DNA of 64,000 nt. Source: Halobellus sp. LT62. GTDB taxonomy: Archaea > Halobacteriota > Halobacteria > Halobacteriales > Haloferacaceae. The DNA lies in assembly GCF_037031285.1 (NCBI RefSeq), contig NZ_JAYEZO010000002.1:186001-250000 (forward strand), given 5' to 3'. Below are positions 33,195-51,232 of this stretch, piece after piece (position 1 is the first letter of the stretch; every line of letters begins with the position of its first letter). The position numbers were made by a program, and so were the translations under genes. Under the pieces are notes generated by a model. The model did not search any database, was not told the origin of the DNA, and saw only the letters and a list, made by a program, of their open reading frames with translations.

Positions 33195-33878
33195 TTACGG
33201 AGCGTAGGCGGCGAGCCGATCTTCGACCTCGCTTACCGGTGTCACGTCGGCGTACTTCATATCGAGATCGAACAGCGTGACCTCGTGAGAGACGGTCCCG
33301 CGGTCGGCCACGCACTCGGGCGGGACGATGACCCGATAGCCTCGCTCGAACCCGTCGACCACGGTGCCGCGGATGCAACCGCTCGTCACGAGTCCGGTGA
33401 CGATCAGCGTATCGATACCGTAGCGCCGGAGGAGCGCGTCGAGGCGTGTCCCGAAGAACGCGCTCCGTCCGGGTTTCCGGAGGACGATGTCGCCCTCGCC
33501 CGGCGCGACCGCCGGTCGGATCTCGTTCCCCTCATCGGGGTCGAACGGGGCCGTGGACTTCGATAGCTGCGTTGTCTCCGTGCCCTCCAAGCGGTCCCGA
33601 CGTTCGAGCCCTTTGACGTGGATGCGCGGAACGCCGTGTTCTCTCGCTGCGGCGAGTAACCCCGCGGTGGCTTCGATGGCCGGGTCGGCCGTATCGGACC
33701 GGCCGAGCGGCCAACCGTCCTCGCTGAACTGGCGGGTGAAATCAACGGCCACGATGGCGACGGCGTCGCCCCATCCGATCCGAGCACCGAACCCCGCCTT
33801 CTCGAAGTACGCCAAATCCGAGTCGGGGATGAGGTCCGGGATGTACGCCTCGTCGAATCGTGCTGATTCCGAATCCAT
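33195..33878 (-). CDS. Isochorismatase-family cysteine amidohydrolase
   Basis: A 227-residue hydrolase. The triad is D46 (VAVDFTRQF), K135 (LRKPGRSAFFGT) and C168 (VTSGCIRGT). The SAFFGT segment fits the N-carbamoylsarcosine amidase/maleamate amidohydrolase side of the family rather than isochorismatase proper. It would release ammonia (or CO2 plus ammonia) from an amide. It sits in the importer-1 operon between permease and binding protein, so the imported compound or an intermediate is probably an amide or carbamoyl compound. Start ATG at 33876-33878; the longer open frame upstream is antisense-like and un-halophilic. Confidence 0.9.
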   Translation of the reverse strand: MDSESARFDEAYIPDLIPDSDLAYFEKAGFGARIGWGDAVAIVAVDFTRQFSEDGWPLGRSDTADPAIEATAGLLAAAREHGVPRIHVKGLERRDRLEGTETTQLSKSTAPFDPDEGNEIRPAVAPGEGDIVLRKPGRSAFFGTRLDALLRRYGIDTLIVTGLVTSGCIRGTVVDGFERGYRVIVPPECVADRGTVSHEVTLFDLDMKYADVTPVSEVEDRLAAYAP

Positions 33879-36727: not shown

Positions 36728-38224
36728 ATGCGAGAGAGCACGCTTACGACAGTCGCCGGCGAGACGGTCAGGCTCCCCATCGTGGAACAGCAGTACATCG
36801 ACGGTTCGTTCGTCGACGGCGGAGGGACGCTCGCCACGGTCCACCCGCCGACGGGAGAACCGCTCGCCGATCTCCCGGTGGCGACGGCTGCAGACGTCGA
36901 CGACGCGGTTGCGGCGGCTAACGCGGCGGCGGCGGAGTGGCAGTCGTTCGATCACCTCGAGCAGGCGCGGCGCGTCGAGGCGTTCGCCGACGCGATCGAA
37001 GACCACCACGCGGAGCTCATCCGGCTCGAGGTCGCAGACAACGGGAGCTGTCGGTCGCTGTTCGAGCGTGACGCGCAGATCGCTTCGAGCTCGGCGCGCC
37101 ATTACGCCGGGCTCGCAACCGAACTCAAAGGGCAGACGATCCCGACGCCCGGAGAGACGTTCAACTATACGCAGCGGGAACCCTACGGTGTCATCGGCGA
37201 TATCGTCCCGTTCAACCACCCGCTGATGTTCGCCGCCAAGGACATCGCGGCCGCGCTTACCGCCGGCAACACGATCGTCCTCAAGCCGTCCGAATACACG
37301 TCGCTCTCTACGCTGTACCTCGCGTACCTCATCGACGAGGGCGGGATGTTCCCCGACGGCGCTGTCAACATCGTCACCGGGGGCCCCAGCGTCGGCGAGG
37401 CGTTGGTCCAACACCCCGACATCGATCTGAACCATATGCGCGGCAGCTCGGCGACGGGCAAGGCCATCCTCGAGAGCGGCGCACAGCATCTCACACCGCT
37501 CGTCGGGGAGATGGGCGGGAAGAACCCGGTCATCGTCTACCCCGACACCGACGTTGAGGCGGCCATCGAGGGAACCGTTACCGGGATGGGTCTCCCGTGG
37601 GAGGGACAGTCCTGTGCGAGCGGGTCGCGTCTCCTCGTGCACGAATCGCTCGCCGACGAGGTCGTCGCCGGCGTAGTCGAGCGGTTCGAGAGCGCCCGCA
37701 TCGGCGACCCGTTCGACGCGGACAGCGAGGTGGGCTCTCTCGTCTCCGAGACGCAGTACGAGCGCGTCCTCGACCTGATCGAGACGGGGGTCGCCGAGGG
37801 CGGGACCGTCCTGTGCGGCGGCGGCCCGGCGACGGACGTCGCCGACGGCTACTACGTCGAACCGACGGTCGTCGAGGTCTCCTCGGAGAACGTCCTCGCC
37901 AACGAGGAGGTCTTCGGCCCGGTGCTGTCGGTTATGCGGTGGAGCGAGTACGACGAAATGATTTCTCTCGCGAACGGCGTCGACTACGGACTGACCGCCA
38001 GCGTGTGGACGAACGACATCCGGACCGCAAAACGCACGATCGACGACCTCGAGGTCGGGTACGTATGGGTCAACCAACACGGCACGATCTATCCGGCGAC
38101 CCCGTTCGGCGGGTTCAAAGAGAGCGGGCTCGGAAAGCACGGCGGTCTCGACGAGCTGTTCTGTTACACTCGAGAAAAGAACGTCAACTTCTCGCTCGAA
38201 GGCGATACCCTCCCGAACCGCTGA
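36728..38224 (+). CDS. Aldehyde dehydrogenase family protein
   Basis: A 498-residue NAD(P)+-dependent aldehyde dehydrogenase. The cofactor lysine is in VLKPSEYTS, the general-base glutamate in LVGEMGGKNP and the nucleophilic cysteine in WEGQSCASGSR, all in the expected order. The betaine-aldehyde/succinate-semialdehyde branch is closest by eye. It is transcribed away from the importer-1 operon and would oxidise the aldehyde made by the zinc alcohol dehydrogenase or by the DapA-like lyase. Substrate unassigned. Confidence 0.93.
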   Translation: MRESTLTTVAGETVRLPIVEQQYIDGSFVDGGGTLATVHPPTGEPLADLPVATAADVDDAVAAANAAAAEWQSFDHLEQARRVEAFADAIEDHHAELIRLEVADNGSCRSLFERDAQIASSSARHYAGLATELKGQTIPTPGETFNYTQREPYGVIGDIVPFNHPLMFAAKDIAAALTAGNTIVLKPSEYTSLSTLYLAYLIDEGGMFPDGAVNIVTGGPSVGEALVQHPDIDLNHMRGSSATGKAILESGAQHLTPLVGEMGGKNPVIVYPDTDVEAAIEGTVTGMGLPWEGQSCASGSRLLVHESLADEVVAGVVERFESARIGDPFDADSEVGSLVSETQYERVLDLIETGVAEGGTVLCGGGPATDVADGYYVEPTVVEVSSENVLANEEVFGPVLSVMRWSEYDEMISLANGVDYGLTASVWTNDIRTAKRTIDDLEVGYVWVNQHGTIYPATPFGGFKESGLGKHGGLDELFCYTREKNVNFSLEGDTLPNR

Positions 38225-39100: not shown

Positions 39101-39589
39101 TTACTCGTCCGCTTCGGCTTCCTGCTGCTCGTGGTAGTACCCGAACAACCCGCCAGCGTCGTAGATTCGTCGCAGTTCCGGGGAGATCGGCTCGGAGTCG
39201 ACGGTCTCACCGGTCGTCTCGTTTTTGACGGTTCCGTCCGCCATACTGATGCTGACCGTGTCTCCCTCGGAGAAGTGCTCGGTCGCGTCTGGAACCGTCA
39301 GTGCGGGAAGTCCGATATTGACCGAGTTTCGGTAGTAGAGCCGCGAGAACGACTCCGCGACGACGGCCGCGATTCCGGCCTCCTGCACCGCCTTCGGGGC
39401 GGTTTCACGGCTGCTCCCCGAGCCGAAGTGGTCGCCGGCGACGATGATGTCGCCGTCAACGATTTCCTCGTGGAATCCGGGACGGATCGGCTTCATGAGG
39501 TTCTCGACGAGGTTGTCCTCCGAAAAGCCGGCGGGCGCGATGTAGTCCGTGTTGATTTCGTCGCCGAAAACGAACGCCGCTCCCTTCAT
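39101..39589 (-). CDS. LeuD-type aconitase-family small subunit 1 (canonical)
   Basis: A 162-residue swivel-domain subunit of a hydro-lyase. The catalytic loop FGSGSSRETAPKAV keeps the Ser-Ser-Arg trio used in aconitase, and GDEINTDYIAPAGF is the usual N-terminal motif. It pairs with the LeuC subunit just upstream, overlapping by 4 nt (ATGA). Candidate reactions are isopropylmalate, methylmalate/citramalate, homoaconitate or maleate hydration. Position inside a catabolic island argues against leucine biosynthesis. The longer open frame upstream is inside leuC1 in another frame. Confidence 0.88.
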   Translation of the reverse strand: MKGAAFVFGDEINTDYIAPAGFSEDNLVENLMKPIRPGFHEEIVDGDIIVAGDHFGSGSSRETAPKAVQEAGIAAVVAESFSRLYYRNSVNIGLPALTVPDATEHFSEGDTVSISMADGTVKNETTGETVDSEPISPELRRIYDAGGLFGYYHEQQEAEADE

Positions 39590-40848
39590 GCGACCACCCC
39601 CTCTTTCGGCTCCACGATACGGCCTTCGATCGCGGACGCGGCGGCCGTCTGCGGGCTGGAGAGGTAGATCTCGGCGTCGTCGCTTCCCATCCGCCCGCGG
39701 AAGTTCCGGTTCATCGCCGAGAGACAGACCTCGCCGTCGCCGATGACGCCCAGTCCGCGGCCCGGACACGCGCCGCACGTCGAGTTCGTGACGACCGCGC
39801 CGGCGTCGTTGAAGATCTCGACGAGCCCGTTGTTGACCGCGCGCGTGTGGATCTCGCGCGATGCGGGCGTGATGATGAGTCGCGTGCCCCGCGCGACTTC
39901 ATTGCCTTCGAGCACCTCCGCGGCGCGCTTGAGATCTTCGTACTTCCCGTCCGTACAGGAGCCGATGAACACCTGATCGAGTTCGACGTCGCCGATGTCG
40001 TCGATCGGGGAGACGTTCCCGACCTTGTGCGGCGCGGCGATCTGCGGTCTGAGATCGGAGACGTCGATCGTGTACGTCTCCTCGTACTCCGCGTCGTCGT
40101 CGGCGTACACGGGCGTATACGGTTTGTCGGTCCGCTCGTCGACGTAGTCGGTCACGACGTCGTCGACTGGCGTGAACCCGAACTTTCCGCCCAGTTCGAT
40201 CGCCATATTCGAGAGGACCATCCGCTCGTCGAGCGGCATCGACTCGACCGCCGGCCCCGTGTATTCGATCGAGCAGTAGCGCGCCACGCCGGTCCCATAC
40301 GTTCCCGCGATGTAGAGGACGAGGTCCTTCGCGGACGTGGGTTCGGGGAACTCGCCTTCGACGTGGAAGCGGACGGTCTCGGGGACGCGGAACCACGTCT
40401 GGCCGGTCGCGAAGATGTAGGCCATATCGGTCGTGCCGATCCCGGTTCCGGCGGCCCCGTACGCGCCGTGTGTGACCGTGTGCGAGTCGATTCCGACGAC
40501 GAGTTCGCCCGGACGAATGTGGCCCTTCTCGGGCAACACCTCGTGGGAGATCCCGGTCCCGACCTCGTAGAACGTCTCGATGTCGTGTTCGTCGATGAAC
40601 TCCCGCATGTAGCTCTTGTCGTTGGCGTCGTCGATCCCGTGTGCGGGGGCGATGTGATCGATGATCGTGACGAGTTTCGACGTGTCCCAGATCTCTTCGA
40701 CGCCCTCGCTCCTGAACTTCTCGGCGACGGCGACCGTCCCGTCGTGGGACATCGCGACGTCTACGTCACACATCACGTGATCCCCCGGGGACAGGTCATC
40801 GGACCCCGACGCTCGTGCGAGTATCTTCTCGGCTATTGTCTTACCCAT
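39586..40848 (-). CDS. LeuC-type aconitase-family large subunit 1, with intact [4Fe-4S] site
   Basis: A 420-residue large subunit. Cluster ligands C298 (GSCTDG), C358 and C361 (STCGACPG) are present. So are DSHT (121-124), THG, and the carboxylate-binding arginines in MNRNFRGR (about 379-386). It is therefore a normal iron-sulfur hydro-lyase. The promoter has a TATA box with an IclR-like palindrome immediately downstream. The divergent-looking pair leuC1/leuD1 follows the iclR gene on the same strand (56-nt gap), so IclR control is likely. True substrate is undetermined. Confidence 0.9.
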   Translation of the reverse strand: MGKTIAEKILARASGSDDLSPGDHVMCDVDVAMSHDGTVAVAEKFRSEGVEEIWDTSKLVTIIDHIAPAHGIDDANDKSYMREFIDEHDIETFYEVGTGISHEVLPEKGHIRPGELVVGIDSHTVTHGAYGAAGTGIGTTDMAYIFATGQTWFRVPETVRFHVEGEFPEPTSAKDLVLYIAGTYGTGVARYCSIEYTGPAVESMPLDERMVLSNMAIELGGKFGFTPVDDVVTDYVDERTDKPYTPVYADDDAEYEETYTIDVSDLRPQIAAPHKVGNVSPIDDIGDVELDQVFIGSCTDGKYEDLKRAAEVLEGNEVARGTRLIITPASREIHTRAVNNGLVEIFNDAGAVVTNSTCGACPGRGLGVIGDGEVCLSAMNRNFRGRMGSDDAEIYLSSPQTAAASAIEGRIVEPKEGVVA

Positions 40849-40904: not shown

Positions 40905-41657
40905 CTATCCGTACTGTGCGCGCAGTTTGATCTCCTCTGCGACTTGCAGGGTGAGATCTTTGTACTCGGTCTTGAGCTTCTGTTCGGTCAGGCGGTTTGC
41001 GGGGCCGAAGATCGTGACCGAGCCGTAGATCCCGCCGGTGGGTTTGAAGATCGGTGCCGCGAGCGCGTTGATATCCTCGGCGGCCTCTTGGAAGTTGTAG
41101 GCGACGCCCTCCTCACGGGCGAACTGGAGCTGTTCTCGAAGTTCGGTTTCGTCGGTTATCGTGTGCTCGGTGCGTGCGGACATCGTCAGGCTCGAGATAA
41201 TCTCCTCGGCTCGCACTTCGTCCATATACGCCAAAATCACTTTCCCGGCCGCGAGGAGGTTCGGTTTACTCCGGTATCCGATCGACGCGTACGTCTCGAT
41301 GTGGTGTTCCCCGGAGACGCGGTAGATGTACACGATCTCTCCGTTCTCCTCGACGGATAACCAGATGTTTTCACCCGTCTCCCGCGCGGTCTCGTCGAGC
41401 TTCGTCTTTGCGACCTTGTATATCGGACGTTGTAACCGGGCCTTCTCGCCGAGTTCCAACAGACCGAGCCCGAGCCAGTATCCGTTTTCCTGCTTCGTTA
41501 CGAACCCCTGCTCTGTCAGAGTCGTGAGGTGGCGGTGAACCGTGCTCTTCGAAACCCCGAGCGAACCCGCGATGTCACTGAGCGTGATTCCCGGGTCCGA
41601 CTCGATGAGCCGGATGATCGAGCCCATCGTGTTGTACGACTTGATTTGGCCGGACAT
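40905..41657 (-). CDS. IclR-family transcriptional regulator
   Basis: A 250-residue regulator. The N-terminal winged helix (TLSDIAGSLGVSKSTVHRHL, about 25-44) is followed by the GAF-like effector domain of the IclR family. Family members usually repress or activate catabolic genes in response to a small acid. It is the only transcription factor in the island and lies at its centre, between leuC1 and the OCD-leuC2-leuD2 operon. TTCCG...ATC.GG words lie in its own promoter region and in the spacer to the right. Confidence 0.93.
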   Translation of the reverse strand: MSGQIKSYNTMGSIIRLIESDPGITLSDIAGSLGVSKSTVHRHLTTLTEQGFVTKQENGYWLGLGLLELGEKARLQRPIYKVAKTKLDETARETGENIWLSVEENGEIVYIYRVSGEHHIETYASIGYRSKPNLLAAGKVILAYMDEVRAEEIISSLTMSARTEHTITDETELREQLQFAREEGVAYNFQEAAEDINALAAPIFKPTGGIYGSVTIFGPANRLTEQKLKTEYKDLTLQVAEEIKLRAQYG

Positions 41658-42141: not shown

Positions 42142-43221
42142 ATGCGAATACTAGAGAACGATCACGTCAAAGAAGTAATTAGAAAGGATGACACCCTCGA
42201 ATCTCTCGAGATCGCCTACAAGGAGCTCGTCCAGAACCAGGGCGCGAACAGGCCACGGAATCACACGTACTTCCCGGTCGACCACCCCGACCACCCCGGA
42301 TTCCAGTTTCGCTTCAAGTCTCAGGAGGGTGGAAACGTTTCGAGCGGCGTCTGGGCGCTCCGCATCACGTCCGACGTCGCGGGCGTCGACGAGACCCCGA
42401 GCGGCGTGAAGCGACGGCGGCTGCTGCCCGTCGCGCCCAACGACCAGTTCGTCGGGTATATCACCCTTTACAGCCTCGAAACCGTCGAACCGCTCGCAAT
42501 CATTCACGACAGCTTCGTGCAGAAGTGGCGCGTGGGCGCGACCACGGCGCTCGGCATCAGGGAACTCGCACGGGAGGACGTGACCACCGCCGGCCTGTTC
42601 GGTTCCGGTTGGCAGGCCGAAGCGCACCTCGAGTTCCTGCTCGAAGTGCGTCCGTCGATCGAACAGGTGAACGTGTTCAGCCCCACCAAAGAACACCGCG
42701 AAGACTTCGCCGAGGAGTGGAACGAGAAGACCGACGTCGAGATCGTTCCGGTCGAACACCAGAAGGACGCGGTGAAGGGCTGTGGTATCGTGATCACTGC
42801 GACCGCCGCGATGGATCCGGTCTTCGACGGCGAGTGGATCGAGCCGGGAACGCACGTGACGTGCATCACGAACCCCGACGGAACGGCGACGCGGCGGGAA
42901 CTCGACGACACCACGTACGATCGCGCGGACGTCCTCCACGTCACTTCCCGAGAGCAGGTCCACCACGACAGCCAGTTCGACATCCTCGGACCGGTCGAAC
43001 GCGGCCTCCGTGACTGGGAATCGATCCGCGAGATCGGCGAGGTCTTACTCGGTGACGCGGAGGGGCGCTCCTCCCCCGACGATATCACGGTCTACGCGAA
43101 CAACACCGGAATGGGGCTTCAGTTCGCCGCGGTGTGCAGCAGGGTGCTCGAACGCGCCGAAGAGGCCGACATCGGCCACGAGGTCCCCACTGACTGGATG
43201 CTCGAAGCGACGACGCCGTGA
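42142..43221 (+). CDS. Ornithine cyclodeaminase / mu-crystallin family protein
   Basis: A 359-residue NAD(P)-dependent protein. The Rossmann motif GLFGSGWQAEAHLEFLLE (about 151-168) and the arginine-containing helix QKWRVGATTALGI (about 129-141) match the OCD/mu-crystallin fold. The family includes ornithine cyclodeaminase, alanine dehydrogenase and imine reductases such as delta1-pyrroline-2-carboxylate reductase. It is longer than typical members (about 320). It is followed after 116 nt by the cluster-less leuC2 and then leuD2, which suggests linked chemistry (dehydration to an enamine or imine, then reduction or deamination). Start ATG 42142; TATA-like DNA lies about 32 nt upstream. Confidence 0.88.
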   Translation: MRILENDHVKEVIRKDDTLESLEIAYKELVQNQGANRPRNHTYFPVDHPDHPGFQFRFKSQEGGNVSSGVWALRITSDVAGVDETPSGVKRRRLLPVAPNDQFVGYITLYSLETVEPLAIIHDSFVQKWRVGATTALGIRELAREDVTTAGLFGSGWQAEAHLEFLLEVRPSIEQVNVFSPTKEHREDFAEEWNEKTDVEIVPVEHQKDAVKGCGIVITATAAMDPVFDGEWIEPGTHVTCITNPDGTATRRELDDTTYDRADVLHVTSREQVHHDSQFDILGPVERGLRDWESIREIGEVLLGDAEGRSSPDDITVYANNTGMGLQFAAVCSRVLERAEEADIGHEVPTDWMLEATTP

Positions 43222-43337: not shown

Positions 43338-44600
43338 ATGACCCGTGAAATGAACGTGGTCGAGAAGATCCTCGCCCGGGCCAGCGACCGAGACGAGGTC
43401 GAACCCGGGGAGATCGTCGTCGCCGACGTCGACCGGGCGATCTTCCACGACCTCAGCGGCTACATAACCGGCAACGTCTACGAGGAGGCGTTCGAGGAAC
43501 CCATCCAGTACCCCGACCGGGTGACGATGGTGTTCGATCACACGTTCTCGCCACCGAACGAGGAGCAGGCGAACATCCTCGAGTCGAACCGCGAGTTCGC
43601 GGATCGGCACGATATCGGCCTCTTCGACTGCGGGAACGGGAACATCCACCACGTCATCCTACAGAACAACCTCGTCGAGCCCGGATCGGTCGTCGTCGGA
43701 TCCGACAGTCACACGCCCGTTCACGGCGTTCTCGGGTCCTTCGCGACGGGAGTCGGTAACAACGCCCACGCGGGAATGGTCTTCCCCGACGGACAGTGCT
43801 GGTTCAAGGTGCCGCGGACGGTCAAAATCGAGATCACGGGATCGCCCCCACCGGGAACGACCGCCCGGGACATCGCCCTCTATCTCGTCGGTGAGATCGG
43901 CGAGGGCGGCGCAAACTACGACGCGCTCGAATTCTCCGGCGAGTACGTCGACGGGCTCGAGTTCTGGGATCGGTGGCTGCTCCCCCTGATCACGATCGAC
44001 GTCGGCGCGAAGTGCGGGTACATCGAACCGGACGACGAGACCGAGACCTTCCTCGAAGACCGTGGGGTCTCCACCGATCGGATGGTGAAAAACGACCCCG
44101 GTGCGGAGTACGCGGAGGTCTGGGAGTTCGACGTCAGCGACGTGCCGCCACAGGTCGCTTGTCCGCCGACCGTCGGTAACGTCGTCCCCATCGACGAGGT
44201 CGCGGGAACGTCGGTCCAGTGGGCCGAACTCGGCGGCCACGGCGGCGGCAGACTCGAGGACTTCGAGCTGGCTGACGGCGTCCTCGAAGAACGGGCCGAG
44301 GACGTTCGGTTCAACCTCGTGCCCTCGAGTCGAGAGACGTTCTCGCAAGCTCTCGACGCCGGCTTAGTGGACGAACTCCACGAAGCGGGAGGGACGTGGT
44401 TCCCACCCAGCACGGGGTCGAATCAAGCGATCAATATGGGAGCGATGACGCAGAACGAGGCGATGATCTCGACGCACGCGCGGAACTTCCCCGGTCGAAA
44501 CGGCCATCCGGAGGCCAAGATGTACCTCGCGTCGGCCCTCACGGTGGGCGCGTCGGCGGCGAACGGCGAGATCACGGATCCGAGGGAGTACGTACAATGA
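43338..44600 (+). CDS. LeuC-type aconitase-family large subunit 2, lacking the [4Fe-4S] cysteines
   Basis: A 420-residue homologue the same length as LeuC1, aligning throughout. It keeps DH near 67-68, DSHT (123-126), VHG (128-130) and the arginine block ARNFPGR (381-387). The three cluster cysteines are gone: C298 of LeuC1 corresponds to H301 (ELGGHGGG), and C358/C361 to T359/N362 (PPSTGSNQ). No nearby Cys replaces them. The protein therefore cannot bind the usual [4Fe-4S] cluster and must use another mechanism, another metal, or be non-catalytic. It is coupled to leuD2 by ATGA overlap (44,597-44,600). Confidence 0.88.
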   Translation: MTREMNVVEKILARASDRDEVEPGEIVVADVDRAIFHDLSGYITGNVYEEAFEEPIQYPDRVTMVFDHTFSPPNEEQANILESNREFADRHDIGLFDCGNGNIHHVILQNNLVEPGSVVVGSDSHTPVHGVLGSFATGVGNNAHAGMVFPDGQCWFKVPRTVKIEITGSPPPGTTARDIALYLVGEIGEGGANYDALEFSGEYVDGLEFWDRWLLPLITIDVGAKCGYIEPDDETETFLEDRGVSTDRMVKNDPGAEYAEVWEFDVSDVPPQVACPPTVGNVVPIDEVAGTSVQWAELGGHGGGRLEDFELADGVLEERAEDVRFNLVPSSRETFSQALDAGLVDELHEAGGTWFPPSTGSNQAINMGAMTQNEAMISTHARNFPGRNGHPEAKMYLASALTVGASAANGEITDPREYVQ

Positions 44601-45094
44601 TCGAAGGACGCGTCTGGACGTTCGGTGATAACGTCCCGACAGACGAAATCGTACCGTCCGATCTCGTGTTCAAGCCGCTCGAGGAGATGGCCGAACACGT
44701 GCTGGAAACGAGAAATCCCGAGTTCCCGAAGTCGGTCGAAGAGGGCGACGTCATCGTCGCCGGCGAGCACTTCGGGCAGTCTTCCGGCCGCGCCATCGCG
44801 CCGAAGGCCGTTCAGGCGACCGGCGTCGCCTGCGTGGTCGCTGACAGTTTCGCCCGGACGTTCTACCGGAACTGCTTCGAGATCGGATTACCGGTACTCG
44901 CCCGCGAGGGCGTCACGGACCTCGTCGACGAGGGCGACACGGTGAGCGTGGACCTCCGCGAGGGGCAGATCACGAACACGACGACCGGAGAGACGATCGA
45001 GTGCGAATCGGTCGATCCCTTCCTGCTCGAAATGGTCGAGTCGGGCGGACTGATCCCGTACAAGAAACAGGGATTCTCGGCCGACTCGGACTGA
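44597..45094 (+). CDS. LeuD-type aconitase-family small subunit 2 (partner of cluster-less LeuC2)
   Basis: A 165-residue swivel subunit starting MIEGRVWTFGDNVPTDEIVP. The catalytic loop is changed from GSSREHAP to SSGRAIAP (FGQSSGRAIAP, about 57-67): a Ser and the Arg remain, while the middle Ser is Gly and the EH pair is AI. The overall fold motifs (GVACVVADSFARTFYRNCFE, GLPVL) are intact, so it is expressed and folded rather than decayed. It co-evolved with LeuC2. Confidence 0.88.
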   Translation: MIEGRVWTFGDNVPTDEIVPSDLVFKPLEEMAEHVLETRNPEFPKSVEEGDVIVAGEHFGQSSGRAIAPKAVQATGVACVVADSFARTFYRNCFEIGLPVLAREGVTDLVDEGDTVSVDLREGQITNTTTGETIECESVDPFLLEMVESGGLIPYKKQGFSADSD

Positions 45095-45255: not shown

Positions 45256-46386
45256 TCACCAGTCGCCGGTCAGGACGTCTGGGCCGTCGTTCCGGAGTGC
45301 GAGCGTGTCGTTCAACACGAGCAGCGAATCGGCGTCGGGCCTGAGCGCGAGCCGAGCGGAGACGGTCATCCCCGCCGTCAACTCCGCCTCGTCGTCTCCT
45401 ATCGGCGCTTCGTCGGCTTCGAGACCGATACCGTGAAGCACGTCGTACTCGGGGGAAAGCTCCCAGCCGAGTTCACTCGCGGCGGACCGAGCCTGATCGA
45501 CGACCTGAGAGGCAGTGGTTCCCGGTGTGATCGATTCGAGGAACGCCGCGTACGCGTCAGTCACGTCACTGTACTCCGCGTGTGGGGCTTCGCCGTCGAG
45601 GCGAAGCGTTCGCGCGCATTCGGCCCAGTAGCCCTCGAAGCGAACGGCGGTGTACACGCCGATCGGTTCGTCGGCATCGACGCGGCGCTCCTCGGCCGGT
45701 CGGAGGTCCGCCTCCGTCCGAGCGGGGTTCGAGACGAGGAAGCGAACGTCCTGCGCCCCGCGGAGGCGCGCACGGTAGTCGGCCTCACCGGCGAGATCCC
45801 GTTCGGACACGTCGTTCCGATCGACGGCGTCGAGCGCCTCGTGGACGTCGGCTGCGATCCGACCTGCGCGGGCGATTTGGTCGCGCTCCTGTCGAGACTT
45901 CGCCGCGCGGAGGTCCGCCAGCGCGTCGTCGAACGCCACGATGTCGTAGTCCGTCGCGTGTGTCTCGAACCGCGAGCGTTGCTGGTACGGCAGCCGGTCG
46001 AAGGCCGCGGTCCCGATCCTGTTCTCGGGCGCACCGAGGACGTCGTCGAGGTCTTCGAGCACGTTGTCGCAGAACTGGATGTCGTCGATCCACGTCCCGC
46101 GTTCGATCACCGGACGCGTCCGCGAACTCCGCTCGTTCCGCACCGAGACGTGGTCGTGCGTGATACAGACCAACAGTCCCCAGTTCGGCACCTTGTTGAC
46201 GAGGTTCGACACGTAACACAGGTCGCCGTCGCGGTCCCCGCGTCCGTACACCAGCAGCACGTCGACGCCCTCGTCGGTCATTCGACCGCGGATCTGATCG
46301 ATTCGATCCGCGAACGCCGTCGCCGGGAGGTTGATCTCGTCCCAGTAGTCTCGACCGTGGACGAGAACCGGCTCTCTGGACTTCAT
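45256..46386 (-). CDS. M24 (creatinase-fold) protein A, metal ligands lost
   Basis: A 376-residue pita-bread-fold protein with an N-terminal creatinase domain (about 20-160). The five M24 metal positions are Y245, E256, H318, R345 and N359 by alignment to D-D-H-E-E (segments VYTAVRFEGYWAECART, VLHGIGLE, TVSARLALRPD). Only the histidine is kept. Metal-free M24 members of this sort are C-N hydrolases such as creatinase and ectoine hydrolase rather than aminopeptidases. Its start overlaps the stop of protein B by 4 nt (46,383-46,386), so A and B are co-translated and may form a heterodimer. Converges with leuD2. Confidence 0.85.
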   Translation of the reverse strand: MKSREPVLVHGRDYWDEINLPATAFADRIDQIRGRMTDEGVDVLLVYGRGDRDGDLCYVSNLVNKVPNWGLLVCITHDHVSVRNERSSRTRPVIERGTWIDDIQFCDNVLEDLDDVLGAPENRIGTAAFDRLPYQQRSRFETHATDYDIVAFDDALADLRAAKSRQERDQIARAGRIAADVHEALDAVDRNDVSERDLAGEADYRARLRGAQDVRFLVSNPARTEADLRPAEERRVDADEPIGVYTAVRFEGYWAECARTLRLDGEAPHAEYSDVTDAYAAFLESITPGTTASQVVDQARSAASELGWELSPEYDVLHGIGLEADEAPIGDDEAELTAGMTVSARLALRPDADSLLVLNDTLALRNDGPDVLTGDW

Positions 46387-47495
46387 TGTACCACCTCCTT
46401 CGTGAAGAGACGCGGCGGCGTCTCGGTCAGCGTCTCGCTCCCGCCTTCAGTGATCAACACCGGATCGCCGAGAGCCAAGTACCCCGTTTCGGGGATGTAC
46501 TGGTTCGGGTGGATCACGACGACCATCCCGTCGGTGAGTTCGACGTCGGTGTCCTCGGTGATCGCCATCCCGATCGGTCCGATCCCGAACTCGTGACCGC
46601 GCGTCCGCATATACGGGGGTTGACAGTACTCGTCGTAGCCCTCGCGGCGGAACACGTCGTTCATCGTCTTCGAGATCGTGGCGGCCGGAACGCCGGGACG
46701 AAGCTTCGATTTCGTCTCGGCCAGCGCCTCCTCTAAGAGCTGGTATTTGGTGGTGAGGGTCCCGTTCGGCGAGCCGACGGAGATCGTTCGACAGATCTGC
46801 AGGACGAATCCCTCGTACATCGGTGAGAGCTCACAGAGGAACGTGTCCCCCCCCTCGACGATTCGTTCTGTGGGAGAGTGCATCAGATCGTTTCGCTCGC
46901 CGCTTCCCAAGAGATTGAAATTGTCCTCGGCCCCGGCGTCGCGCATCGCTTTTTCGATCGACGCGGCGATCTCGTACTCCTTGACGCCCGGGCGTAGAGC
47001 GTCGTACGCCGCCTCGAAGCCTCGATCGGCGATCCGACCGAGCTTCCGGAAGATCGCTATCTCCTCTGCGGTCTTTCCGCGAGTGAGCTCGTAGAGCGCG
47101 TCGTCGATGGCGGTGAGTTCCGCGACGGCACCGTCCAAACTCTGGCGGACGCCGAGCGGCATCCGATCGGCTCCGGCGACGCCGACGGTGCCCTCCAGTT
47201 CGAGATCGGACACGACAGACTGGAGATCCGCGTCGAACGAATCGGTCGCTCTGACCTCGTCGACCTCCGCGTGTCGCTGGAGACGTTTCACGTCCCGAGA
47301 GAGGTTAGTGAGGATCAGAGTCTCACCTTCCGCCGTGACGAACAGACAGTTCCGATCGGCCACGGGGCTGGCCCCGGCGACGAAATCGAAGTAACTCGGA
47401 TGTGCGACGCTGTGCATCCCATCGGCAAAGATAGCCGCACCCTGCATCGATGGATGGTCCGCTAGGTAGTCCTCCAGCTTGCTTCTATACGACAT
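46383..47495 (-). CDS. M24 (creatinase-fold) protein B, metal ligands lost
   Basis: A 370-residue M24 protein with creatinase N-domain (to about 140) and pita-bread C-domain. Ligand positions are E222 (CELSPMYEGF), Q233 (VLQICRT), H301 (RGHEFGIG), H329 (VVIHPNQY) and G343 (LALGDPVLIT). Again only His301 of D-D-H-E-E survives. It shares the fold but little detailed sequence with protein A. First gene of the two-gene operon, divergent from importer 2, which may import its substrate. Start is the ATG at 47493-47495; a longer open frame upstream is not halophilic. Confidence 0.86.
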   Translation of the reverse strand: MSYRSKLEDYLADHPSMQGAAIFADGMHSVAHPSYFDFVAGASPVADRNCLFVTAEGETLILTNLSRDVKRLQRHAEVDEVRATDSFDADLQSVVSDLELEGTVGVAGADRMPLGVRQSLDGAVAELTAIDDALYELTRGKTAEEIAIFRKLGRIADRGFEAAYDALRPGVKEYEIAASIEKAMRDAGAEDNFNLLGSGERNDLMHSPTERIVEGGDTFLCELSPMYEGFVLQICRTISVGSPNGTLTTKYQLLEEALAETKSKLRPGVPAATISKTMNDVFRREGYDEYCQPPYMRTRGHEFGIGPIGMAITEDTDVELTDGMVVVIHPNQYIPETGYLALGDPVLITEGGSETLTETPPRLFTKEVVQ

Positions 47496-47668: not shown

Positions 47669-47754
47669 AACATTTATTATAGTTCCTCAAGACGCTAAGG
47701 TAAGGAGTGAGGCCATGCAGTAGGTCAGCGGCCAGCACTCTTGCAGGACCAACG

Positions 47755-48855
47755 ATGATCCGAAGAAACTTTCTCAGGACGGTCGCGGGCGGTAGCGCGG
47801 TCGCTATCGCCGGATGTATGGGCAACGGAGACGACGGTGGCGACGAGACTACCGAGCCGAGTTCGGGTGGGGGAGATTCGACTACCGCCGCCTCGTCGGA
47901 CTCCGGTTCGGACTCCGATTCCGGTGGCGGCACCGACCTCCCGGACCAGATGAACCTCGGACTCTCCTCGCCCGCTCGCGGGGTGTTTTCGTTCCCGCTG
48001 TGGCCCGGGCTACAGCGCCGTCTCGAGGAGCAGGGCTCGTCGATGTCGGCCGAAGCGTTTTCGGGACACACACCGACTGCCGGTGCGCTGGTCCAAGGCG
48101 ATATCGTGACGGGTTATATGGGGCTCCCATCGCTGCTGAAGGCCCAGCAGGAGGGCCTCCCGCTCGTCGCGATTCACAGCTTTATGCAGGAGTACAACTT
48201 CCCGATGGTCGCGCAACCGGACATCACTAGCTGGGATCAACTCGAGGGGGGCACGATCGCGATTCACGCGCCCACCGGTGCCACTTCGGTCATCTCTCAG
48301 TATATGCTCAACGAGGAGTTGGGTTCGACTGATTCCGTCGAACTGACGTACATCGTCGGGAGCGGGAACCGAGCGTCGGCCCTCAGAGCCGGCGACGTCG
48401 ACGCCACGTGTCTCCTCGCCTCGCCGGGTGAACAGCTCTCGGTCACCGGCAACGGAAACATCCTCGCGTACCCTCAAGATTACGAGGGACTGTCGAATAT
48501 GCTGACCAACGTGTGGGTCGCACTCGAACCGGACTTAGAGGAGCGATCCGATTCCCTCCAAGTGTTCGTCGACGAGATGCAGGCGTCGTACTCGCGGATG
48601 TTCGAGGGCGATCACGAGACGATCATCTCCGAGGCCGAGGAGTCGGGCGAGTACCCCGATTACGAACAGGAGGCGTGGTCGAACGCGTTGGAAATCGCCA
48701 CCGACTCTCCCCCGCTGTGGCCCGAATCCAAGGAGACGAGCCTGCCGGCCGAAAACATCGAGCGAACCCAAGATCTGCTCGTCGATATCGGCGAGATCGA
48801 AGAGGAGACCGCGAAACCAGTCAGCGAGATCGTCGATCGTCGATTCCTCGAGTGA
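47755..48855 (+). CDS. ABC importer 2: Tat-exported lipoprotein substrate-binding protein
   Basis: A 366-residue binding protein. The twin-arginine signal and lipobox (IRRNFLRTVAGGSAVAIAGC, 2-21) precede an acidic Ser/Asp/Gly linker and an NMT1/TauA-like domain (MNLGLSSPARGVFSFPLWPG). It begins a four-gene importer operon followed by an MFS carrier. The ligand pocket differs from importer 1, so the two systems probably take up different compounds or isomers. Start ATG 47755. Confidence 0.9.
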   Translation: MIRRNFLRTVAGGSAVAIAGCMGNGDDGGDETTEPSSGGGDSTTAASSDSGSDSDSGGGTDLPDQMNLGLSSPARGVFSFPLWPGLQRRLEEQGSSMSAEAFSGHTPTAGALVQGDIVTGYMGLPSLLKAQQEGLPLVAIHSFMQEYNFPMVAQPDITSWDQLEGGTIAIHAPTGATSVISQYMLNEELGSTDSVELTYIVGSGNRASALRAGDVDATCLLASPGEQLSVTGNGNILAYPQDYEGLSNMLTNVWVALEPDLEERSDSLQVFVDEMQASYSRMFEGDHETIISEAEESGEYPDYEQEAWSNALEIATDSPPLWPESKETSLPAENIERTQDLLVDIGEIEEETAKPVSEIVDRRFLE

Positions 48856-48873
48856 AGAGTTTCCGAGTACACT

Positions 48874-49644
48874 ATGGCTCTTCCAATTTATGCGGATAAT
48901 GTCTCGAAGTGGTATGGATCCGGAGAGCAGAAGGTACACGTACTCGATCAACTGAACCTGAGCGTCGACTCCGGGGAGTTCGTTGCGGTGCTCGGTCCGT
49001 CCGGCTGCGGGAAGACGACGCTGATCAAGATGATGGACGGCCTCGTCGACATCTCCGAAGGGGAAATCAGGATCGGTGACCGCTCCGTCTCGGAGCCGTC
49101 CACCGACGTCGCGATGGTGTTTCAGACCTTTCAGCTGTATCCGTGGCGATCGGTCCTCGACAACGTCGCTCTCGGACTAGAGATCCAAGGCGTCCCGAAG
49201 AGCGAGCGGTACGAGCGGGCCCGCGAGTGGATCGAGACCGTCGGTCTCTCGCGGTTCGAAGACAAGTACCCCTACGAGCTCTCGGGCGGGATGCAGCAGC
49301 GCGTCGGACTCTCTCGCGCACTCGTCGTCGATCCCGAGGTCCTCCTGATGGACGAACCCTTCGGAGCGCTCGACGCGCAGACGAAAGACACGCTCCAGAC
49401 GGAACTGCTCCGCCTGCTCGACGAGGAACAGAAGACGGTGGTCTTCGTCACCCACGACATCCGCGAGGCCGTGTTTTTAGCCGACCGGGTGGTCGTACTG
49501 GACAAGATCCCGACGTCGATAACGATGGAGTTGGACATCGAGTTCGACCGTCCCCGATGGAACCGACGCGGCGAGGTGGAGGGTACCAAACAGTTCGCCG
49601 AGTACGAACAACAGCTCCGAGAGCACCTCGGCCTGAGTGAGTGA
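48874..49644 (+). CDS. ABC importer 2: ATP-binding subunit (NitT/TauT type)
   Basis: A 256-residue ATPase with Walker A GPSGCGKTT (about 42-50), Q-loop FQTFQLYPW, signature LSGGMQQRVGLSRA and Walker B LLMDEPFGALDAQT, then the H-loop THDIREA. It follows the binding protein after 18 nt and precedes the first permease by 2 nt, so the operon is tight. Confidence 0.94.
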   Translation: MALPIYADNVSKWYGSGEQKVHVLDQLNLSVDSGEFVAVLGPSGCGKTTLIKMMDGLVDISEGEIRIGDRSVSEPSTDVAMVFQTFQLYPWRSVLDNVALGLEIQGVPKSERYERAREWIETVGLSRFEDKYPYELSGGMQQRVGLSRALVVDPEVLLMDEPFGALDAQTKDTLQTELLRLLDEEQKTVVFVTHDIREAVFLADRVVVLDKIPTSITMELDIEFDRPRWNRRGEVEGTKQFAEYEQQLREHLGLSE

Positions 49645-49646
49645 CG

Positions 49647-50465
49647 ATGAGTAGCGAGAACCCCTCTCCAAGCGCGTTTCTCCCGGACTCCGTGGGACGA
49701 TTCCTCCGCGGCGAGACCGTGGCCCGGAAGTACGTCCTTCGAGTTATCGCCGTGATCGTGGCGCTCGTGCTGTGGGACCAGTACGCGAGCACGCAACCGA
49801 CGTACTTCTTCCCGGCTACCGAGCGGATCGCGGGGGCCCTCGTAGAGCAGTACTACGAGTACAACCTCGTTCAGGCGTTCCTCGGCAGTATGTGGACCCT
49901 GTTTGTCGGCTTCGCGCTGGCCGTACTCGTCGGCATTCCGACCGGGCTGCTAATGGGGACCAACCGGTACGCCGAGGTCGTCTTAGACCCCTACGTCACG
50001 GCGCTGTATATCGCTCCGATCGCGGCACTGGTTCCGTTGCTGGTGTTCGCCTTCGGTGCGTCCTTCGAGACCCGGGTGGCGATCGTGTTCCTCTTCGCGG
50101 TGTTCGAGATCATCATCGACACCTACAAAGGCGCGAAAGCGACGCCCAAGGCGTCGATAAACGTCGCTCGTTCGTTCGGCGCGAGCCGGCTGTTCGTCCT
50201 CCGAAAGGTCGTCATCCCCTACGATATGCCGTACATCTTCACGGGTCTCCGACTGGCGATCGGGAGGGGGCTCAAGGGACTCGTTCTCGCGGAACTGCTG
50301 ATCAACTTCGCGAACTTGGGGGCGATCATCAGGATCTGGCAAGACGACTTCCGCCTCCAAGGCGTGCTCGCGATCGCACTCCTGTTTATGCTCGTCGGGA
50401 TCGTCCTGACGAAGGGGATGCAGTACCTCGAACAGCGGTTCTTCTACTGGGGTGACGAGCAATGA
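49647..50465 (+). CDS. ABC importer 2: permease subunit A
   Basis: A 272-residue six-helix permease of the NitT/TauT group. The EAA-type loop is INVARSFGASRLFVLRKVVIP (about 170-190). The start is ATG 49647; a GTG two codons earlier (49,641) is possible. Its stop overlaps the next permease (ATGA, 50,462-50,465). Confidence 0.92.
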   Translation: MSSENPSPSAFLPDSVGRFLRGETVARKYVLRVIAVIVALVLWDQYASTQPTYFFPATERIAGALVEQYYEYNLVQAFLGSMWTLFVGFALAVLVGIPTGLLMGTNRYAEVVLDPYVTALYIAPIAALVPLLVFAFGASFETRVAIVFLFAVFEIIIDTYKGAKATPKASINVARSFGASRLFVLRKVVIPYDMPYIFTGLRLAIGRGLKGLVLAELLINFANLGAIIRIWQDDFRLQGVLAIALLFMLVGIVLTKGMQYLEQRFFYWGDEQ

Positions 50466-51232
50466 GCACGGTCTCATTGGACCCGGAGCAGCGGACGGAC
50501 CGTCTGCTCTTGAACGCCGGGTTCTTCGCCGTCATCATCGCCGCGTACGTCGCGGTAGCCGCGCTCGTTGACGTGGTTCCGTACCCGCAGGAGATCGTGG
50601 CCGCGTTCTACACGCAGGTCACGACGGAGAACCTCACCGAGGCGACGGTCAACGCCCTGTACGCGATATTCACCGGCTACTTCCTCGCGGTACTCGTCGG
50701 CATTCCTATCGGACTGCTGATGGGCGTGTTCTCGCCGCTCGAGGAGTTCTTCGATCCCTACGTCGACGCGCTGTACGCCCTGCCGCTGGCGGCGATCGTC
50801 CCGGCGATGATCATCTGGTTCGGCACGGGGTTCAGCGTGCGCGTCGCCGGCGTGTTCTTCTTCTCGCTGTTCCCGATTCTGATTAACACGCTCAACGGGG
50901 CGAAGAACACCCCCGAGGACCTTCTCGAAGCCGCACGCTCCTTCGGTGCGGGGAAGTACTTCATCATCAAGAACATCGTTATTCCACACGAGGTGACATA
51001 TATCGCTACCGGACTGAGAATAGGTATTTCTCTTGCAGTGAAAGGACTGGTGGTCGTCGAGATCATCGTGTCCGTCACGGGATTCGGCGAACTCATCTTC
51101 AGATGGGGTGCAGCCGTCCAACTCGAGGGCGTGTTCAGTGTCGTACTGACGCTAATGGCGCTCGGAATCGTCCTCACGTCGCTGCTCACGAGAATCGAAA
51201 ATCGGATCGTCCACTGGGACGTCTCCGAGTGA
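50462..51232 (+). CDS. ABC importer 2: permease subunit B
   Basis: A 256-residue six-helix permease, homologous to subunit A. The EAA-type loop is LEAARSFGAGKYFIIKNIVIP (about 156-176). Around 50,990-51,060 the DNA is noticeably AT-richer than its surroundings, hinting at recent mosaic origin. With subunit A it would form a heterodimeric channel. Confidence 0.92.
   Translation: MSTVSLDPEQRTDRLLLNAGFFAVIIAAYVAVAALVDVVPYPQEIVAAFYTQVTTENLTEATVNALYAIFTGYFLAVLVGIPIGLLMGVFSPLEEFFDPYVDALYALPLAAIVPAMIIWFGTGFSVRVAGVFFFSLFPILINTLNGAKNTPEDLLEAARSFGAGKYFIIKNIVIPHEVTYIATGLRIGISLAVKGLVVVEIIVSVTGFGELIFRWGAAVQLEGVFSVVLTLMALGIVLTSLLTRIENRIVHWDVSE

Follow-up and report, generated by a model that had tools for sequence, protein, structure and literature searches.

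The standard textbook example of non-redox catalysis by an iron-sulfur cluster, which serves as a Lewis acid, is aconitase. The 2-methylcitrate dehydratases of the MmgE/PrpD family handle aconitase-like substrates and need no Fe-S cluster, so that chemistry of this kind is feasible in its absence. Within the aconitase superfamily, all members except aconitase X (AcnX) share three cysteines and a 4Fe-4S cluster (PMC8184944). AcnX converts cis-3-hydroxyproline to pyrroline-2-carboxylate, an imine that is then reduced by pyrroline-2-carboxylate reductase (PMC5144071). A dehydratase, a reductase and an M24 ring hydrolase make up the proposed order of hydroxyectoine breakdown, EutB-EutC-EutD (PMC5924519). 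In the open PMC literature, the range that was searched, no paper describes a LeuC that lacks these cysteines.

The window analyzed here, a stretch of 64,000 nucleotides from the haloarchaeon Halobellus sp. LT62, encodes two LeuC-LeuD pairs, one of which (LeuC2-LeuD2) includes a large subunit of this kind (Table 1). The leuC2 open reading frame is intact and codes for 420 amino acids, with Met5 (base 43350) corresponding to the start in the homologues. In the full-length alignment of LeuC2 with the LeuC1 of the same window (36% identity, 5 gaps in 417 columns), GSCT of LeuC1 lies opposite GGHG, which contains His301, and TCGAC lies opposite TGSN, with Thr359 and Asn362. The initial annotation, which had placed H301, T359 and N362 at the cluster-cysteine sites of LeuC1, is thus borne out on this point, and the DH, DSHT, VHG and RNFPGR motifs that it listed as preserved are all four seen in LeuC2. 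Its claim of tight coupling to a dedicated LeuD holds as well: the leuD2 ATG at 44597 overlaps the leuC2 TGA (ATGA), so that the two genes are translationally coupled.

Table 1. Features of the window in and around the LeuC2-LeuD2 locus
Feature	Coordinates	Strand	Evidence or remark
LeuD1, canonical small subunit (GSGSSRE)	39101..39589	-	profile and motif
LeuC1, canonical partner large subunit, three cysteines present	39586..40848	-	not in the lineage of the bacterial LeuC1 partners
IclR-family regulator between LeuC1D1 and OCD-LeuC2D2	40905..41657	-	Pfam IclR_C 6e-35
OCD/mu-crystallin family protein, imine-reductase-like, third core member	42142..43221	+	Pfam OCD 5.2e-39
LeuC2, large subunit of the aconitase fold, lacking all three cluster cysteines	43338..44600	+	Pfam Aconitase 2.6e-62
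LeuC2 Cys98 codon, family-specific invariant, 6 residues ahead of active-site His104	43629..43631	+	Cys 33/33; not Cys in the listed comparison rows
LeuC2 His301 codon, position of mitochondrial aconitase Cys358	44238..44240	+	His 33/33 in the family, Cys 56/56 in the comparison
LeuC2 Thr359-Asn362 codons, positions of Cys421 and Cys424	44412..44423	+	Thr/Ala/Ser and invariant Asn (n=33); Cys 56/56 in the others
LeuD2, small subunit of LeuC2	44597..45094	+	NCBIfam LEUD_arch 171.8 bits, cut-off 108.95
M24b, the other M24 protein, more degenerate than M24a, which it overlaps by 4 bases	45256..46386	-	Pfam M24 4e-19
M24a, creatinase/prolidase fold, without M24 metal ligands (ELSP, QICR, RGHEFG, HPN, GDP)	46383..47495	-	Pfam M24 5.6e-32
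SsuABC/NMT1-type ABC importer comprising a binding protein, an ATPase and two permeases	47707..51232	+	substrate uptake presumed from position

A scan of 84,980 species, each represented by one genome, with LeuC2-derived patterns yielded 36 true relatives of LeuC2 that are 52-65% identical and come from six bacterial phyla; the same scan also picked up one remote canonical protein (L037). The relatives are found in Bacillota (including Alicyclobacillus isolates and Lachnospiraceae MAGs), Actinomycetota (Geodermatophilus, Actinomadura, Streptomyces and Pseudonocardia), Pseudomonadota, Spirochaetota, Chloroflexota and 'Deltaproteobacteria' (several filed under Myxococcota). A homologue search and a tree had been proposed in the initial annotation, and in the resulting tree all 33 full-length LeuC2 proteins form one branch with an SH-aLRT support of 100. 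The stem of this clade is long (1.59 changes per column) and, owing to the long branches, its exact neighbour is unsure. By sequence, LeuC2 is a distinct, conserved subfamily within the IPMI/HACN clade that is free of the cluster cysteines. Among 391 genomes of its class, the QWAELGGH pattern was detected only in the genome of the window; across 30 other genomes of the order, the best LeuC2 match is just 38% identical, so the haloarchaeal gene was most likely acquired from bacteria. No LeuC2-type member was seen in the plasmid collection, where the best matches are 37% identical.

For the analysis of individual sites, 33 full-length LeuC2 proteins were aligned with 28 linked LeuC1 and 28 other LeuC or aconitase-like proteins (56 comparison proteins in total), and positions were numbered after mitochondrial aconitase by profile alignment. 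Cysteine is absent from each of the three cluster sites in every full-length LeuC2 (n=33): Cys358 is replaced by His, Cys421 by Thr, Ala or Ser, and Cys424 by Asn. The substitutions extend to Asn258 (Leu, Met or His) and Asn446 (Ala, Val or Ser), which we take to lie beside the cluster in aconitase, and to Glu262 (Asp). All six residues are retained in 56/56 comparison proteins. Asp100 and His101, which precede the aligned region and were assigned by the DH motif, as well as His147, Asp165, Ser166, His167, Arg447 and Arg452, show no variation anywhere in the three groups. The roles of these aligned residues in catalysis and substrate binding are established for aconitase. They are summarized in part in PMC8184944. 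Private invariants of LeuC2 include Cys98, Asn102, Gln294, Trp295, Glu297 and Gln363; Cys98, Glu297, His301 and Asn362, each found in 33/33 members, are absent from the cysteine-containing relatives, and Cys226 is conserved in 31/33 members and replaced in two. As for Glu262, the residue E198 was also considered as its equivalent and rejected because the residue-by-residue profile alignment gives Asp221, which makes the relaxation at position 198 meaningless.

This residue pattern is far beyond chance. The loss of the cluster ligands together with two neighbouring asparagines, in a clade that preserves the residues for acid, base and substrate, points to re-purposing rather than decay; the intact reading frame and the conserved family likewise agree with the earlier view that the gene is maintained. 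The small subunit LeuD2 is encoded beside LeuC2 in 36/36 loci and carries the private motif FGQSSGR in 41/41 sequences; a further motif is GDN(I/V)PTD. FGQSSGR holds the equivalents of Ser642 and Arg644, and the Ser643 position is occupied by Gly.

The AlphaFold model of LeuC2 (pLDDT 92.6, pTM 0.93) closely matches the large subunits of Methanocaldococcus jannaschii (HACN, Z 54; IPMI, Z 52), and comparison with 4kp1, 4kp2 and 4nqy gives Foldseek TM values of 0.89-0.92 and Z of 52-54. The Z values of 17-19 against AcnX are far below those for IPMI and HACN. LeuC2 has no match to the AcnX profile PF04412, PF00330 being its sole Pfam match (E <= 0.001), and membership in AcnX was rejected on profile, low structural Z and sequence.

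Across the 36 LeuC2 loci, many of which lie on contigs that are cut short, LeuC1 is present in 30, OCD in 23 and M24a in 21, a usual order being M24a-M24b-OCD-LeuD1-LeuC1-LeuC2-LeuD2. The expectation, set beforehand, that the clade would adjoin OCD and M24 genes is thus confirmed across phyla. Six loci from anaerobes (Clostridia, Lachnospiraceae, Treponema, Spirochaetaceae and Flexilinea) lack OCD, carry a gene for a PreA/DHODH-like reductase beside LeuC1 and have a duplicated LeuD2; at no LeuC2 locus were OCD and the PreA-like gene found together. These anaerobe loci (L009, L018, L019, L025, L027 and L030) encode two LeuD2 per LeuC2, and most have an AbrB-like permease. Importers of the organic-acid type (TRAP, TctC, SsuA/NMT1) occur at LeuC2 loci, and IclR genes are found at several bacterial ones too.

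The median identities between the window and bacterial proteins are 63% for OCD, 62% for LeuC2 and 54% for LeuD2, and this core trio in the haloarchaeon looks to be of bacterial origin. The corresponding values for LeuC1, LeuD1, M24a and M24b are 43%, 34%, 31% and 22%; between five bacterial loci from different phyla, these proteins are 61-81%, 61-75%, 50-71% and 30-50% identical, respectively. In the tree, LeuC1 of the window groups with other haloarchaeal proteins, and LeuC1 of the anaerobes forms a third lineage. The low identities of LeuC1, LeuD1 and M24, combined with the separate LeuC1 lineages, indicate that canonical LeuCD was placed beside LeuC2D2 more than once, which argues strongly that they are functionally linked; the pairing of LeuC1D1 with LeuC2D2 seems to have been rebuilt and to be functional. 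All linked LeuC1 proteins that cover the sites retain the cluster cysteines. Two divergent LeuC2D2 members (L032:10001-11763 and L034:10001-11754) are encoded without LeuC1, OCD or M24, with no LeuC1 within about 8-10 kb on either side, so that coupling to OCD is not universal. In L034, the flanking genes encode a Lyase_1 protein (fumarase/adenylosuccinate-lyase-type), MmgE/PrpD, enoyl-CoA hydratase, CaiB and FAH, the last two of which are also present in L032.

Several loci show peculiarities of their own. Four distinct OCD-family proteins (34-63% identical to the OCD protein of the window) and two cupins are encoded within 12 kb of LeuC2 in L001:498-12421. UbiD-family decarboxylases, with up to three paralogues per locus, flank the cassette in L008:15572-20696, L015:3667-14127 and L031:3756-5285. 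In L003:3159-4283, only the first residues of LeuD1 appear to be left, joined to a TctC-like protein, and LeuC1 is missing, owing to either a deletion or an assembly artefact.

Among solved structures, the nearest to the OCD protein are pyrroline-2-carboxylate reductase (6t3e) and alanine dehydrogenase (1omo), that is, imine reductases and related dehydrogenases; since its N-terminal third (about 100 residues) does not align with the solved relatives, the reaction assigned to it is a tentative one. The metal ligands of M24a are lost in every intact member (TELTPQ, QICR, HPN, GDP), with the histidine kept. In the loci examined, namely the window for the M24 pair and L004-L036 for M24a, the replacements are QICR for DxTR, HPN for EPG and GDP for the second Glu. 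The ligands of the dinuclear metal centre are thus missing, which makes M24 the second cofactor-dependent family of the cassette to have shed the residues for its cofactor. Elsewhere in the window, an isochorismatase-family hydrolase (33195-33770, minus strand), with biuret and ureidoacrylate amidohydrolases as its nearest relatives, is encoded just upstream, within another importer cluster of the SsuABC type, and an aldehyde dehydrogenase lies at 36728-38224; further steps of the pathway are possible roles for these two enzymes.

We hold with moderate confidence that LeuC2-LeuD2 is an active two-subunit enzyme of the aconitase fold that works without a [4Fe-4S] cluster, both cluster loss and reaction class being what we infer from the sequences. 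Because the catalytic residues are kept and the conserved gene set resembles one for nutrient breakdown, the LeuC2 family probably performs aconitase-type chemistry. The subfamily may well be a cluster-free hydro-lyase or isomerase, either metal-free or with one metal on His301, that carries out the central reaction of a catabolic pathway not yet described, together with the M24 pair and the imine reductase, a proposal to which we give about as much credence as doubt. In LeuC2, Asp67-His68 would be the proton donor, His104 and Asp123-Ser124-His125 would keep their places, and Arg382 and Arg387 would hold the carboxylate; the base would be the LeuD2 serine of FGQSSGR, with the arginine of the motif. 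At the former place of the cluster, the pocket is predicted to be remodelled by His301, Glu297, Asn362, Gln363, Cys98 and Asn102. Most likely, the reaction would add or remove water, or shift a double bond, next to the carboxylate of a nitrogen-containing organic acid. Reduction of the enamine or imine product would fall to the linked OCD protein or, in anaerobes, to the PreA/DHODH-like reductase, and the M24 pair would open C-N bonds before or after the reduction; the canonical LeuC1D1 might contribute a second, cluster-dependent step. We infer the order of these steps from gene association and analogy. The candidate substrates, of the iminodisuccinate, itaconate, hydantoin/ureide or pyridine type, are guesses drawn from the HyuAB, UbiD, PrpD, PreA and isochorismatase neighbours, each of which occurs at a minority of loci.

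The probability that LeuC2 is an ordinary isopropylmalate isomerase altered by a sequencing error or by decay is negligible. Its score does fall barely below the general LeuC subfamily cut-off (NCBIfam NF001614, 381.7 versus 385), and it is also under the curated cut-offs of TIGR02086 (366 versus 410) and TIGR02083 LEU2 (301 versus 611), but QWAELGGHxGG and (S/C)xGSNQ are common to the 36 independently sequenced relatives, which also have intact paired subunits, so that a sequencing error or a pseudogene is ruled out; moreover, other canonical LeuC-like proteins are encoded elsewhere in the same genome. A regulatory rather than enzymatic role has a precedent: a cluster-less aconitase (IRP1) is a known RNA-binding regulator. 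The adjacency of LeuC1 and LeuC2 in 30/36 loci would suit a LeuC2-LeuD2 pair that, by analogy with this apo-aconitase precedent, serves as a non-enzymatic structural or regulatory partner of LeuC1-LeuD1. We consider this very unlikely, however, because neither subunit varies at any of its catalytic acid, base or substrate residues, the two divergent members persist with no LeuC1 nearby and the LeuC1 partners come from separate lineages.

The main rival concerns the cofactor. In place of the cluster, a single Fe2+, Zn2+ or Mn2+ ion might serve as Lewis acid and accept the hydroxyl, with His301 as one ligand and Cys98, Glu297, Asn362 or the retained histidines as the others. The four family-specific invariants described above would fit such a site, and the first account of AcnX was of a mononuclear iron centre whose ligands were Glu and two Cys (PMC5144071), but this centre has since been reassigned as a [2Fe-2S] cluster (PMC8184944), and we regard a mononuclear site in LeuC2 as possible yet doubtful. 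The second rival, an unusual iron-sulfur cluster on Cys98, Cys226 and His301, comparable to that of AcnX with its own cysteines, draws on the conservation of these two family-specific, or nearly family-specific, cysteines and on the movement of cluster ligands within the superfamily documented by AcnX (PMC8184944). Just two conserved cysteines are left, however, one of which is replaced in two members, and the second-shell Asn258 and Asn446 are also lost, making this arrangement unlikely. The suggestion in the initial annotation that LeuC2-LeuD2 represents a new catalytic type is plausible, though Cys98 (33/33) and Cys226 (31/33) could, with low probability, form the replacement cysteine set that it named as a refuting case.

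A clade that is nested among cysteine-containing relatives and has shed the cluster ligands, yet keeps the acid, base and substrate residues, offers a natural test of the cluster's purpose. It also apparently marks a widespread catabolic pathway that has gone unannotated and whose genes would receive leucine-biosynthesis names. The MmgE/PrpD proteins differ from LeuC2 in their unrelated fold and are encoded as neighbours at a few LeuC2 loci only. The ectoine and 5-hydroxyectoine cluster EutB-EutC-EutD(DoeA) resembles LeuC2D2-OCD-M24 in combining a dehydratase, an OCD-family reductase and an M24 hydrolase; EutC is an OCD-family protein by the NCBIfam match to OCD of the window, whereas EutB, unlike LeuC2, belongs to the threonine dehydratase family. 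Identity with this cluster was rejected, given that OCD scores 103.7 bits against the EutC cut-off of 471.65 and M24a scores 33 bits against 613 for EutD, so that the resemblance is one of analogy only. The archaeal-type IPMI/homoaconitase (LeuCD, HacAB; MJ0499, MJ1003) is like LeuC2D2 in its two subunits, fold (Z 52-54), 35-40% sequence identity, the DH, GxxxH, DSH and RNFxGR residues and a small subunit with catalytic Ser and Arg. LeuC2 departs from it in that the cluster cysteines and Asn258 and Asn446 are gone, Glu262 has become Asp, and QWAELGGH, GSNQ and DCG(N/S)GN are private; in LeuD2, FGQSSGR stands against the GSSREHA type. Aconitase X (cis-3-hydroxyproline dehydratase and mevalonate-5-phosphate dehydratase) belongs to the same superfamily and, like LeuC2, has lost the canonical cysteines, and one of its types parallels LeuC2D2-OCD by dehydrating a nitrogen-containing hydroxy acid ahead of an imine reductase; AcnX has its own cysteine set, with [2Fe-2S] or [3Fe-4S]/[4Fe-4S] clusters.
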